Positions 17,071 to 42,237 of a stretch of 64,000 nt of DNA are shown here, one piece after another. A program made the translations under genes and the position numbers. The notes below the pieces were generated by a model. The model was given only the letters and a program-made list of their open reading frames with translations, was not told where the DNA came from and made no database searches. The stretch's first letter is position 1, and each line of letters opens with the position of its first letter. The DNA comes from Kineosporia babensis (GTDB lineage: Bacteria; Actinomycetota; Actinomycetes; Actinomycetales; Kineosporiaceae), in the NCBI RefSeq assembly GCF_021129305.1, contig NZ_JAJOMB010000013.1, positions 62,001-126,000 of the forward strand, written 5' to 3'.

Positions 17071-18062
17071 GCGTGATCACCTACCGCCAGGCGCTGCACG
17101 ACGCGCTGCGCGAGGAGATGCTCCGCGACCAGGACGTGTTCCTGATCGGCGAGGAGATCGGGCTGTTCGAGGGCTCGTACAAGATCACTGCGGGGATGCT
17201 CGAGGAGTTCGGCGAGAAGCGGGTGCGCGACACCCCGATCGCCGAGGAGGGCTTCACCGGCGCCGCGATCGGCGCCGCGATGCTGGGCCTGCGCCCGGTG
17301 GTCGAGCTGATGACGATCAACTTCTCGCTGATCGCGATCGACCAGATCATCAACCACGCGGCCAAGATCTACGGCATGTTCGGCGGCCAGGCCCGGGTGC
17401 CGCTGGTGATCCGCACCCCCGGTGGTGGTGGCCAGCAGCTGGGCGCCACCCACTCGCAGAACATCGAGCTGTTCTACGCGTTCGTGCCCGGCATGAAGGT
17501 GGTCGCGCCCTCCAGCCCGGCCGACGCCAAGGCGCTGATGCTGGCCGCGATCCGCGACGACGACCCGGTGCTGGTACTGGAGAACCTGGCGCTGTACAAC
17601 ACCACCGGCGAGGTGCCCGACGTGGTCGAGCCCGCCGAGATCGGCAAGGCCAAGGTCACCCGGGAGGGCAAGGACATCACCGTCGTCGCCTACTCCCGGA
17701 TGGCGCACGTGGCCCTGCAGGTCGCCGAGCAGCTGGCCCGCGAGGAGGGCATCGACGTGGAGGTCGTGGACCTGCGCAGCCTGCGCCCGCTGGACCGGGA
17801 CACGGTCGTCGAGTCGGTCAAGAAGACCAACTGCGCGGTCGTTCTCGAGGACGACTGGCTGACCTACGGGATCGGCGCCGAGATCGCGGCGACCATCTCC
17901 GACGGTGCCTTCGACTACCTCGACGCCCCGGTCCGCCGGGTGGCGATGGCCGAGGTGCCGCTGCCCTACGCCAAGTCGCTCGAGACCGCCGCCCTGCCCT
18001 CGGCCGCGGACGCCGCCAACGCCATTCGTGAAACGCTCGACGCCGTGGCCCGGCGTCGCTGA
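17067..18062 (+). CDS. pdhB: Pyruvate (2-oxo acid) dehydrogenase E1 component, beta subunit
   Basis: 331 residues, full length. Transketolase-like pyrimidine domain with FLIGEEIGLFEGSYKIT, VRDTPIAEEGFTGAAIGAA, and LMTINFSLIAIDQIINHAAK. It then has VIRTPGGGGQQLGATHSQ and the C-terminal EVVDLRSLRPLDRDTVVESV. It pairs with the alpha subunit to bind thiamine diphosphate at the heterotetramer interface. It overlaps pdhA by 4 nt, indicating translational coupling, and is followed 13 nt later by E2. Confidence 0.9.
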   Translation: MSVITYRQALHDALREEMLRDQDVFLIGEEIGLFEGSYKITAGMLEEFGEKRVRDTPIAEEGFTGAAIGAAMLGLRPVVELMTINFSLIAIDQIINHAAKIYGMFGGQARVPLVIRTPGGGGQQLGATHSQNIELFYAFVPGMKVVAPSSPADAKALMLAAIRDDDPVLVLENLALYNTTGEVPDVVEPAEIGKAKVTREGKDITVVAYSRMAHVALQVAEQLAREEGIDVEVVDLRSLRPLDRDTVVESVKKTNCAVVLEDDWLTYGIGAEIAATISDGAFDYLDAPVRRVAMAEVPLPYAKSLETAALPSAADAANAIRETLDAVARRR

Positions 18063-18075
18063 GAGGACCGCAGCA

Positions 18076-19323
18076 ATGATCGACATCCTGATGCCCCGCC
18101 TCTCGGACACGATGACCGACGGCACCGTCTCGGCCTGGCACAAGAAGCCCGGTGACCCGGTCGCCGCCGGTGACCTGCTGGTCGAGATCGAGACCGACAA
18201 GGCGATCATGGAGCAGGAGGCCTACGAGGCCGGCACGCTCGCCGAGATCCTGGTCCCCGAGGGCGAGAACGTCGCGATCGGCACCCCGATCGCCCGCCTG
18301 GACAACGGCACCGGCGACGCACCTGCACCTGCCCCCAAGGCCGAAGAGCCCGCCCCGCAGGAGGCCCCGGCCGAAGCAGCCCCTGCCCCGGTCGTCGAGA
18401 AGCCGGTCAAGGCAGAAGAGAACGGCGAGCGCCGCGCCGCCACTCCGCTGGTGCGGAAGCTGGCCCGCGAGAACAACATCGACCTCTCCACGGTGACCGG
18501 CAGCGGCCCGGGGGGACGAATCGTCCGTTCGGATCTGGACAACGCGCTCAAGGCGCCGGCCGCGCCGGCGGCGCCCACCCCGTCCGCCAGCAGTGCCCCG
18601 GCGGCCCCGCAGACGACTGACGCCCGCGAATCCACCGCGGTCCCGTTCGATGCGGTACGTCAGGCCATCGCCACCCGCCTGACCGAGAGCGCCACCACCA
18701 TCCCGACGTTCACCGTCACGGTCGGCGCCGAGGCGGACAAGCTGATGGCCCTGCGGGCCCAGCTGAACTCGGCCCTGGACGGTTCCGGCGTCAAGGTCAG
18801 CGTCAACGACCTGATCGTCCGCGCCGTCGCCCTGGCGCTGCGCGAGCACCCGGGGATCAACGCCTCGTACTCGGCCGAGGGCCGGGGTCAGACTGTGCTG
18901 CACCAGCGGATCAACGTGGGCGTGGCGGTCGCCGCCCCGGCCGGGCTGATGGTGCCGGTGATCCACGACGCCGACCAGGCCTCGGTGTCCGCGATCTCCG
19001 CGCGCACCAAGAAGCTGGTGGCCAAGGCCAACGACCGGACGCTGAGCACCACCGAGATGGCCGACGGCACCTTCACCGTCAGCAACCTCGGGATGTTCGG
19101 GGTGGAGCACTTCACCGCGATCATCAACCCGCCGCAGGGCGCCATCCTGGCCGTCGGCGGGGCCTCGACCGAGCTTGCTCTGGTGGACGGTGAGGTGGTC
19201 CAGCGCAAGAAGATCCGCTTCACGCTGACCGCCGACCACCGGATCATCGACGGCGCGCTGGCCGCCCAGTTCCTGGCCACGCTGACCCAGCTGATCCAGA
19301 ACCCGTTCCGGATCGTCGCCTGA
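18076..19323 (+). CDS. pdhC: Dihydrolipoamide acyltransferase (E2) of the 2-oxo acid dehydrogenase complex
   Basis: 415 residues. A single lipoyl domain carries the lipoylated lysine in VEIETDKAIMEQE near residue 43. Pro/Ala linkers flank a peripheral-subunit-binding domain (ATPLVRKLARENNIDLSTV, GPGGRIVRSD). The C-terminal catalytic domain contains FTVSNLGMFG and ends in TADHRIIDGALAAQFL with the HxxxDG active site. The order E1a-E1b-E2 makes this an operon. No E3 (lipoamide dehydrogenase) is present, so a shared E3 must be encoded elsewhere. A hairpin element and a strong terminator follow. Confidence 0.92.
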   Translation: MIDILMPRLSDTMTDGTVSAWHKKPGDPVAAGDLLVEIETDKAIMEQEAYEAGTLAEILVPEGENVAIGTPIARLDNGTGDAPAPAPKAEEPAPQEAPAEAAPAPVVEKPVKAEENGERRAATPLVRKLARENNIDLSTVTGSGPGGRIVRSDLDNALKAPAAPAAPTPSASSAPAAPQTTDARESTAVPFDAVRQAIATRLTESATTIPTFTVTVGAEADKLMALRAQLNSALDGSGVKVSVNDLIVRAVALALREHPGINASYSAEGRGQTVLHQRINVGVAVAAPAGLMVPVIHDADQASVSAISARTKKLVAKANDRTLSTTEMADGTFTVSNLGMFGVEHFTAIINPPQGAILAVGGASTELALVDGEVVQRKKIRFTLTADHRIIDGALAAQFLATLTQLIQNPFRIVA

Positions 19324-19324
19324 C

Positions 19325-19493
19325 CTAGGTCGTGTTTTGGAAGTCCATGCCTACTGCGGGGCACCCGGTGGCCGCCTGGACTGCGCCGTTGGGACGCCCA
19401 CGTAGAACACCGCTACGAGGGCGCCCCAACGGCTTGCCAGACGACCACCGGGCACCTCCTCGCTACGGCAGCGACTTCCAAAACACTCCCTAG
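19325..19493. mobile_element. Hairpin (MITE-like) element with CTAG flanks, copy 1
   Basis: 161 bp bounded by CTAG on both sides (19325-19328 and 19490-19493). Terminal inverted repeats are of the type GG-NN-GTGTTTTGGAAGTC. The inside folds on itself almost completely: CCCGGTGG pairs with CCACCGGG, GCCGTTGGG with CCCAACGGC, and the apical CGTAG with CTACG. It shares TGCCTACTGC and GGGCACCCGG on the left, and CGGGCACCTCCTCGCTACGG on the right, with copy 2 at 42017-42183. It has no coding capacity. The ends and CTAG target resemble elements moved by IS5-family transposases, but no transposase is present here. Confidence 0.65.
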
Positions 19494-19497
19494 GGCC

Positions 19498-19541
19498 AAA
19501 AAGCACGCGCCGGGCAGGAAACTGCCCGGCGCGTGCTTTTT
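19498..19541. terminator. Strong terminator of the pdh operon (bidirectional)
   Basis: AAAAAGCACGCGCCGGGCA pairs perfectly with its complement over 19 bp around a 6-nt loop, giving A-runs and T-runs on both sides. It lies between convergent pdhC (with its element) and the winged-helix gene. Confidence 0.95.
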
Positions 19542-41860: not shown

Positions 41861-42237
41861 TCCAGAACAATCAGCAGGGGACGTCGTGCTCGCCTTGGGT
41901 GGGCCGGCGTCCCTTGGCGTTCCGGGGCCAATGAGGGACGTGGGTGCTCGCCTCGGCGGGTCGGGCACCTGTCGATTCGGTCGGGTCGCTGCGGCCGGCC
42001 TCGCAGAGCCGGGCGCTTAGGGCCTGTCCTGTGGATCTTTGCCTACTGCAGGGCACCCGGGACGCCGTCTGACCGTGTCCGGCGTGGCCCCACGCAAAAC
42101 CATTGCGAGGGGCCCCACCGGCCACGTCAGCCGACGTCCGGGCACCTCCTCGCTACGGCCATGATCCACAGAACAGGCCCTAGGCTGAACCCGGCGGTCG
42201 AAGACGAGCGCCGGCGGGCGGAGGAGGCGGTGTTCTC
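41861..42237. other. Intergenic region ffh to the amidohydrolase gene
   Basis: 377 bp. It contains an imperfect 57-bp-period direct repeat starting at 41878 and 41935 (GGGACGT...TGCTCGCCT...GG), then hairpin element copy 2. No gene is supported, and there is no clear ffh terminator. Confidence 0.5.
42017..42183. mobile_element. Hairpin (MITE-like) element with TTAG/CTAG flanks, copy 2
   Basis: 159 bp between TTAG (42017-42020) and CTAG (42180-42183). The ends GGCCTGTCCTGTGGATC and the complement of GATCCACAGAACAGGCC match with one mismatch. Conserved with copy 1 are TGCCTACTGC and GGGCACCCGG on the left, and CGGGCACCTCCTCGCTACGG on the right. The stems differ but still pair, for example the apical CGCAA/TTGCG here versus CGTAG/CTACG in copy 1. 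No coding capacity. Confidence 0.65.

Follow-up and report, generated by a model that had tools for sequence, protein, structure and literature searches.

A palindromic, gene-less repeat family of Kineosporia babensis with IS5-type ends and an orientation that tends to follow replication

Two copies of a long hairpin element lie in the 64,000-nucleotide stretch of the Kineosporia babensis genome that was analyzed here (the window). They belong to a multicopy family that is very probably a family of MITEs of the IS5 type, that is, of gene-less palindromic mobile elements. As an explanation of the whole, we lean towards palindromic MITEs moved in trans by IS5-family transposases, with an orientation tied to replication; on the part that concerns the replication mechanism our judgment is evenly balanced. 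As far as we have found within the open-access literature, three things are new: the element family itself, a core that stays constant while the IS5-type ends change, and an asymmetry that involves strand and replication together; no earlier description of the family was found there. The kind of element is already known from ERIC, Correia/NEMIS and RUP (as described in the accessible part of PMC2229807). The features of the two copies and their surroundings are as follows (window coordinates).

17905-19323, plus strand: 2-oxoacid dehydrogenase E2 gene (lipoyl, E3-binding and acyltransferase domains; Pfam), upstream of copy 1
19326-19327: TA to the left of copy 1, one half of the likely target duplication, within CTAG at 19325-19328 (flanks)
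19328-19490, plus strand: copy 1 of the element, type A ends, 163 bp (covariance-model limits and fold; G000:C5:81328-81490)
19328-19345, plus strand: left terminal inverted repeat of copy 1, GGTCGTGTTTTGGAAGTC, IS5-like (compared with an end of the element L105)
19348-19368, plus strand: left half of the conserved core of copy 1, TGCCTACTGCGGGGCACCCGG (motif count and conservation)
19401-19417, plus strand: apical hairpin of copy 1, CGTAG-AACACCG-CTACG (covarying pairs 77-92 and 79-90 of alignment A2)
19449-19468, plus strand: right half of the conserved core of copy 1, CGGGCACCTCCTCGCTACGG (motif count)
19473-19490, minus strand: right terminal inverted repeat of copy 1, GGGAGTGTTTTGGAAGTC on that strand, 16 of 18 positions as in the left repeat
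19491-19492: TA to the right of copy 1, the other half of the likely target duplication
42018-42019 and 42181-42182: TA flanks of copy 2
42020-42180, plus strand: copy 2 of the element, type B ends, 161 bp (fold and covariance model; G000:C5:104020-104180)
42040-42060, plus strand: left half of the core of copy 2 (motif count)
42139-42158, plus strand: right half of the core of copy 2 (motif count)

The initial annotation had described a pair of hairpins, the first just behind a pdh operon, and both were recovered where it had placed them, folding far better than shuffled sequences. Over 19325-19493 the fold reaches -107.4 kcal/mol against a shuffled mean of -60.9 (z -11.5), and over 42017-42183 it reaches -104.0 (z -9.9), with none of 200 shuffles as low in either case. 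The E2 gene ends with TGA at 19321-19323, copy 1 starts 4 nt after it, and an E1-beta-like gene (Pfam) precedes the E2 gene, which fits a site behind a pdh operon. The left and right core stretches occur twice each in the window, compared with 0.01 and 0.05 expected occurrences, respectively. The stems differ between the copies while their pairing is kept, down to the apical CGTAG/CTACG in one and CGCAA/TTGCG in the other, as had been described. The stretches identical in both copies had been called unpaired; they are indeed conserved, but they form an asymmetric, partly paired core. Two further observations concern the surroundings of copy 1 and its core. Between copy 1 and the next, convergent gene is a strong hairpin, AGCACGCGCCGGGCA...TGCCCGGCGCGTGCT (19499-19541), preceded by A and followed by T, as would be suitable for a terminator serving both genes, though a terminator scan gave no flag. 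The right half of the core (19449-19468) resembles a ribosome-binding site on the minus strand (GCGAGGAGGTGCC) and the 3' end of 16S rRNA on the plus strand (CACCTCCTC), perhaps by chance.

The prediction, made from two copies, that the genome holds many of them was borne out. A covariance model built from 26 full-length copies gave 77 matches in the K. babensis genome, or 47 places when hits on the two strands are counted once; each of five congeners has 4-10 places. With up to three mismatches, the right core was found at 46 sites in K. babensis, 29 of them exact, against 3 for the reversed pattern; four of the 46 were judged by reading to be plainly chance (L042, L043, L045 and the second site in L014/L044). 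With at most one mismatch it was present in 6 of 118 genomes, all of the genus Kineosporia and including K. babensis itself. The exact motif was found at 11 loci, in Kineosporia rhizophila (6), K. mesophila (1), Kribbella sandramycini (2), K. capetownensis (1) and K. rubisoli (1). Short relatives are spread more widely: a model built from 14 short copies matched genomes from several families of the class, at least 15 of the 394, and these counts are lower bounds because the survey scored 12 candidates per genome. One further genus had matches in 6 of 12 genomes. The short relatives have in common GCC-TACT-GCG...CGC-TAC-GGC beneath differing terminal repeats; the weakest class-wide matches, and very short ones that lack most of the core (L147, L152), may be other palindromes. 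Carriage by plasmids or phages was considered and dropped, as copy 1 had no match among plasmids and phages and viral contigs contained no exact 19-base core.

Full copies are ~160-165 bp long and consist of terminal repeats of ~18 bp, a two-part core, an inner stem that varies by type, and an apical hairpin whose loop is conserved. In short copies (~70-90 bp) the core is kept and the inner stem is missing. Element lengths are mostly 69-165 bp, and no transposase gene is present. Types A and B differ in their ends, inner stem and apex alike, and a third type has A ends and an A apex on a B body (L010, L014, L016, L019, L021), from which it follows that parts are exchanged. The asymmetric core is constant where the ends differ. 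These descriptions exclude L020, L035, L038 and L064, which had no usable ends and were left out of the element lists; the ends of ~10 decayed copies were set by hand.

Several individual loci had features of their own. One otherwise type B copy (L013, G000:C10:107465-107627) has GAGCCTG on the left and CAGGCTC on the right, both ends altered together, and this is a fresh compensated change beside the TA. The sequence past the right TA of L017, GTGTGTTTTTGAAGTCCA, resembles the beginning of a further type A-like element, and copies may therefore be adjacent to one another. Approximately 20 bases upstream of the short copy L030 is another palindrome, GGGACGGGGACCTCACCTTTGAAAGGTGAGGTCCCCGTCCC, between two CTAG. 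A similar left end was also observed on a longer, different sequence at four loci (L083, L097, L100, L101), where a GGTCGTG../GGTCCGG.. end is followed by TGCCTAC and, further in, by different repeats that contain GTGTACAC and AACAAAGTG...CACTTTGTT hairpins; L083 has two of these sequences in tandem (1560-1833; 1836 onward). These long sequences are perhaps a larger relative or its remains; inspection by eye of the ORF lists of L083 and L097 revealed no transposase-like ORF.

TA is present on both sides of 52 of 108 elements, a set that includes L226-L232 from another genus and leaves out L235. The initial annotation had regarded CTAG as the duplicated target, but the duplication is most likely TA within CTAG, because the bases outside the TA are unequal in copies such as L009, L011, L016, L018 and L028, in which the element nonetheless keeps its terminal G and C. 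Empty sites alone fit a duplication of TA or of CTAG alike, and it is these unequal flanks that separate the two. At one such site, the flanks of L066 match L225 at 90% over 158 nt, gap-free, and the TAG of the uninterrupted gene is the insertion point. At another, the flanks of L062 match L205 at 86% with one gap, the right TA being decayed, and again the TAG of a gene is at the insertion point. The flanks of L222 match L252 at 79% with a 13-nt gap at the site, and L297 is a worse match (73%). Counted without four Kribbella loci and duplicate copies, 61 of 160 element ends have a stop codon within -3 to 12 nt, and at 41 of 160 the TAG stop of the neighboring gene is formed by the TA and the first G of the element. 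As the stop is rebuilt in this way, an element can enter a stop codon and leave the protein unchanged. In tandem gene pairs, where gene direction is partly confounded with replication, the element is sense in 26 and antisense in 7 (congeners 15:2; K. babensis 11:5, which alone is not significant, p 0.21); a cruder gene caller gave 22:3.

An IS element with matching ends was found in a congener (G003). This element, L105, is 1,070 bp long and has an open gene for a 312-aa IS5 transposase that matches NF033580 (NCBIfam transpos_IS5_3) at E 5.7e-70 and contains DUF4096 and DDE_Tnp_1 domains. Its ends, GGGCGTGTTTTGTAAGTC and GGGCGTGTTTCACAAGTG, are located in CTAG, and the ends of MITEs in the same genome include GGGCGTGTTTTGGAATTC (L054, L059). 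One end of L105 is identical to the ends of type A-like elements at 16-17 of 18 bases, and on this basis the best reading of our element is an IS5-mobilised MITE. IS5 elements in another genus have GGGAGTGTCTGACGGATC ends in TA (L186, L194). The source elements may belong to the group named IS427. It had been suggested that an IS5-family transposase with GGGCGTGT ends might be sought in the same genome; such a gene exists in the congener, as L105 demonstrates. In K. babensis three DUF4096 matches were obtained, and no ends like those of the element were found at these loci. No IS bearing type B ends was found. The end-finder, run on 37 loci, often returned no credible ends, and the ends cited here are limited to those flanked by TA left and right. 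One locus (L165, G156:C135:25386-25472) appears to combine an IS5 left end with the right end of our element; a fusion of this type is a possible step by which a core gains new ends.

The TA flanks within CTAG would also be expected of an IS630/Tc1-mariner MITE; RUP, an element of that kind, likewise uses TA. We find this origin scarcely credible, as the ends that match belong to the IS5 element L105 in CTAG, other IS5-type elements of the class likewise have TA flanks, and PF13358 (DDE_3) gave 0 matches at E 0.001 in the K. babensis genome; an IS630 origin was therefore dropped.

The covariation of the stems, first noted between the two copies of the window, was upheld beyond base composition on more copies. 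In the 26 full-length copies, 97.2% of cells pair, the covariation score is 0.321 compared with 0.128 when shuffled (0/500) and at most 0.106 for slid structures, and there are 19 double-change pairs compared with 13.0 (0/500); the number of further pair types, 37 versus 34.8, is not exceptional (56/500). The terminal helix and the inner helix (helix 6) hold nine double-change pairs each, and one lies between them. The 14 short copies gave a score of 0.431 versus 0.175 (0/500) and 13 double-change pairs versus 8.8 (1/500). Both controls, shuffles and slid structures, leave the relatedness among copies in place. The core helices vary little and thus say little for or against pairing there. Matched arms could be explained, as alternatives to selection on the fold, by one transposase recognising both ends or by template-switch correction of quasi-palindromes.

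Comparison of the two strands revealed a consistent difference between them. The strand on which the element was first noted is the worse folder, and its complement folds better: the minus strand had the lower RNA energy in 48 of the 48 full-length copies compared, in 19 of 27 short copies and, for two other groups, in 18 of 19 and in 4 of 6 copies, all hand-picked from the 108. Each transition mismatch between the arms was assigned to the strand on which it reads G-U. Across the 108 elements, G-U on the minus strand predominates both at the ends (66 versus 29 cells; 49 versus 28 distinct contexts) and inside (182 versus 40 cells; 88 versus 35 distinct). When the copies are taken as 55 clusters at 85% identity, a count that leaves out L040, L242 and L243, the figures are 43 versus 13 for the ends and 60 versus 28 inside, and 27 clusters favor the minus strand versus 8 (p 0.002). 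The asymmetry fades with wider clusters, to 14 versus 5 at 75% (p 0.06) and 5 versus 4 at 65%, and part of it resides in the shared core. Mutation bias was rejected as its cause, recent changes at paired sites being 26 versus 21; the corresponding counts for unpaired sites are circular and were set aside. Transversion mismatches at the ends are not depleted, with 51 distinct compared with 49 of the favored transition class, so that the data agree with a constraint against too good a fold of the plus strand no less than with a requirement for the minus strand to fold.

These data also bear on the idea that the fold is under no selection at all, the arms being alike through the matching ends of transposition and through template switching, and the strand asymmetry being inherited from few ancestors. 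That template switching perfects imperfect palindromes is described in the accessible part of PMC6357072, and both the undepleted transversions at the ends and the weakening of the asymmetry in wider clusters are what this idea would lead one to expect. We nevertheless consider it improbable: core mismatches that template switching would erase are kept across genera, covariation extends to the inner stem (the nine pairs of helix 6), away from the ends, and the orientation tied to replication is left unexplained.

The relation of orientation to replication is clearest in the congener G004, assembled as one contig of 8,065,021 bp with dnaA at 2,415,392. Its minus copies are at 0.73, 1.42 and 2.11 Mb and its plus copies at 2.94, 3.16, 3.41, 4.34, 5.12 and 5.75 Mb, so that 9 of 9 run along the fork (two-sided sign test 0.004), provided that replication starts at dnaA and terminates on the opposite side of the chromosome. 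Eight of these copies were from the covariance model and one from the right-core search. Their neighboring genes point both ways, and the GC skew of 20 samples was weak and of the expected sign (+0.011, -0.011). In the draft genome of K. babensis, copies on the same contig agree, with 38 of 45 in the majority (p 0.005) and 24 of 31 adjacent pairs alike (p 0.002). The proxy for replichore was the fraction of a contig's coding windows that lie on its plus strand, with contigs C6, C24, C27 and C34 left out. On all thirteen contigs sampled, 33 of 41 copies agree with the proxy (p 0.0001), and 28 of 30 have its direction on the nine contigs outside 0.46-0.54, an exclusion chosen after the values had been seen; the Spearman coefficient with mean GC skew was 0.50 (p 0.08). 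Near-identical type B copies agree in 13 of 15 cases, and the other two are on C7 (0.49), which has no clear direction. This agreement of recent copies favors polar insertion and is no proof of it. A small sample from another genus (G279, G243) had no bias, with two copies along the fork, three against it and two near the terminus.

When the fork runs with the element, the plus strand, which is the poorer folder, sits on the lagging-strand template. Such an arrangement is in keeping with hairpins being avoided on that template, whether when an element inserts or through loss afterwards. The orientation bias does not discriminate between insertion that is itself polar, the loss of copies in the wrong orientation, and an RNA role. 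The L105 transposase has no clamp-binding motif of the tested form.

Orientation tied to replication and a fold on one strand would also suit an element of the IS200/IS605 kind that transposes as a single strand, with the lagging-strand template as its target. IS200/IS605 elements are not known to have terminal inverted repeats or a target duplication. Our element differs from them in having long terminal inverted repeats and TA flanks, its ends are common to a DDE-type IS5 element, and it is the less well folding strand that occupies the lagging template, all of which make this kind very unlikely.

A role for the element as RNA is possible. It would then act as ERIC/NEMIS do, with a transcript hairpin setting stability or processing, a selected fold, and a core that is read by a protein or an RNase. 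Covariation with conserved loops, G-U-type mismatches that favor one strand, the frequent location of copies at the 3' ends of genes (the 61 of 160 ends close to a stop codon) and the 26:7 sense bias in tandem pairs are all in keeping with this, as are the orientation-dependent mRNA effects known for ERIC (in the accessible part of PMC2229807). However, the better-folding strand is antisense in most tandem pairs, the sense bias is not significant in K. babensis, and the copies of G004 follow replication next to genes that point in both directions. A scan restricted to the sigma-70 type found no such promoter at copy 1, and no Rfam family was matched at gathering score by the window or by loci L061, L141, L133 and L149, the weak hits being far below threshold. 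An mRNA element had been the first choice, as suggested by the sense bias, and was dropped since the opposite strand folds better and orientation in G004 follows replication; we now regard an RNA function as improbable.

Overall, our data support a mobile DNA element of the IS5 type, and its behavior may be pictured as follows. An IS5 transposase would recognise the ends of the element and act in trans. The need for both ends to fit the transposase would keep the arms alike, and presumably so would the correction of one arm with the other as template. Copies would be inserted, or would survive, so that the strand that forms the poorer hairpin is exposed on the lagging-strand template, and the core, as the consistently asymmetric part, may carry the polarity. 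A more specific version is offered tentatively: a portable hairpin core would swap its terminal repeats between IS5 transposases, fork polarity would set insertion or survival, and the strand on the lagging template would have decayed in its capacity to form a hairpin, with a G-U-rich fold retained on its complement, leaving a one-strand structure in double-stranded DNA.

Long palindromes are held to be unstable during replication, and yet dozens of them are present in one genome. Within one set of copies it is possible to count the covariation of the arms, the strand-specific mismatches and the orientation relative to the fork; if the link between them holds, the family is a natural test of which strand's hairpin cells tolerate. 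The family is also a warning that covarying stems with conserved loops, often taken to prove a structured RNA, can belong to mobile DNA; before a structured RNA is inferred, it is worth checking which strand the mismatches favor.

Compared with IS5-family IS elements and the MITEs derived from them, our element has the same GGGCGTGT-kind terminal repeats and TA/CTAG flanks, and a transposase gene with such ends is present in the genus. It differs from the IS5-family elements in having no gene, in being a long palindrome with a constant core under several IS5-type ends, and in its replication-tied orientation. Work by Gomez et al. in 2014 (cited in PMC4549789) reportedly, to judge by its title, linked the orientation of bacterial transposable elements to replication and the sliding clamp; our element shares with those an orientation set by replication, and differs in being nearly symmetric and gene-less. 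With ERIC/IRU, YPAL, Correia/NEMIS and RUP it shares a length of 100-200 bp, many copies, stable long stem-loops and mostly intergenic locations, and several of these families have TA at their termini, as our element does (both according to the accessible part of PMC2229807). The conserved stem-loop, the terminal TA and the copies behind genes of ERIC/IRU are all found here, in a likeness of kind only. Unlike ERIC, YPAL, NEMIS and RUP, our element occurs in other bacteria, has a sequence that appears unrelated on reading, carries IS5-like ends, and has an orientation that follows replication.
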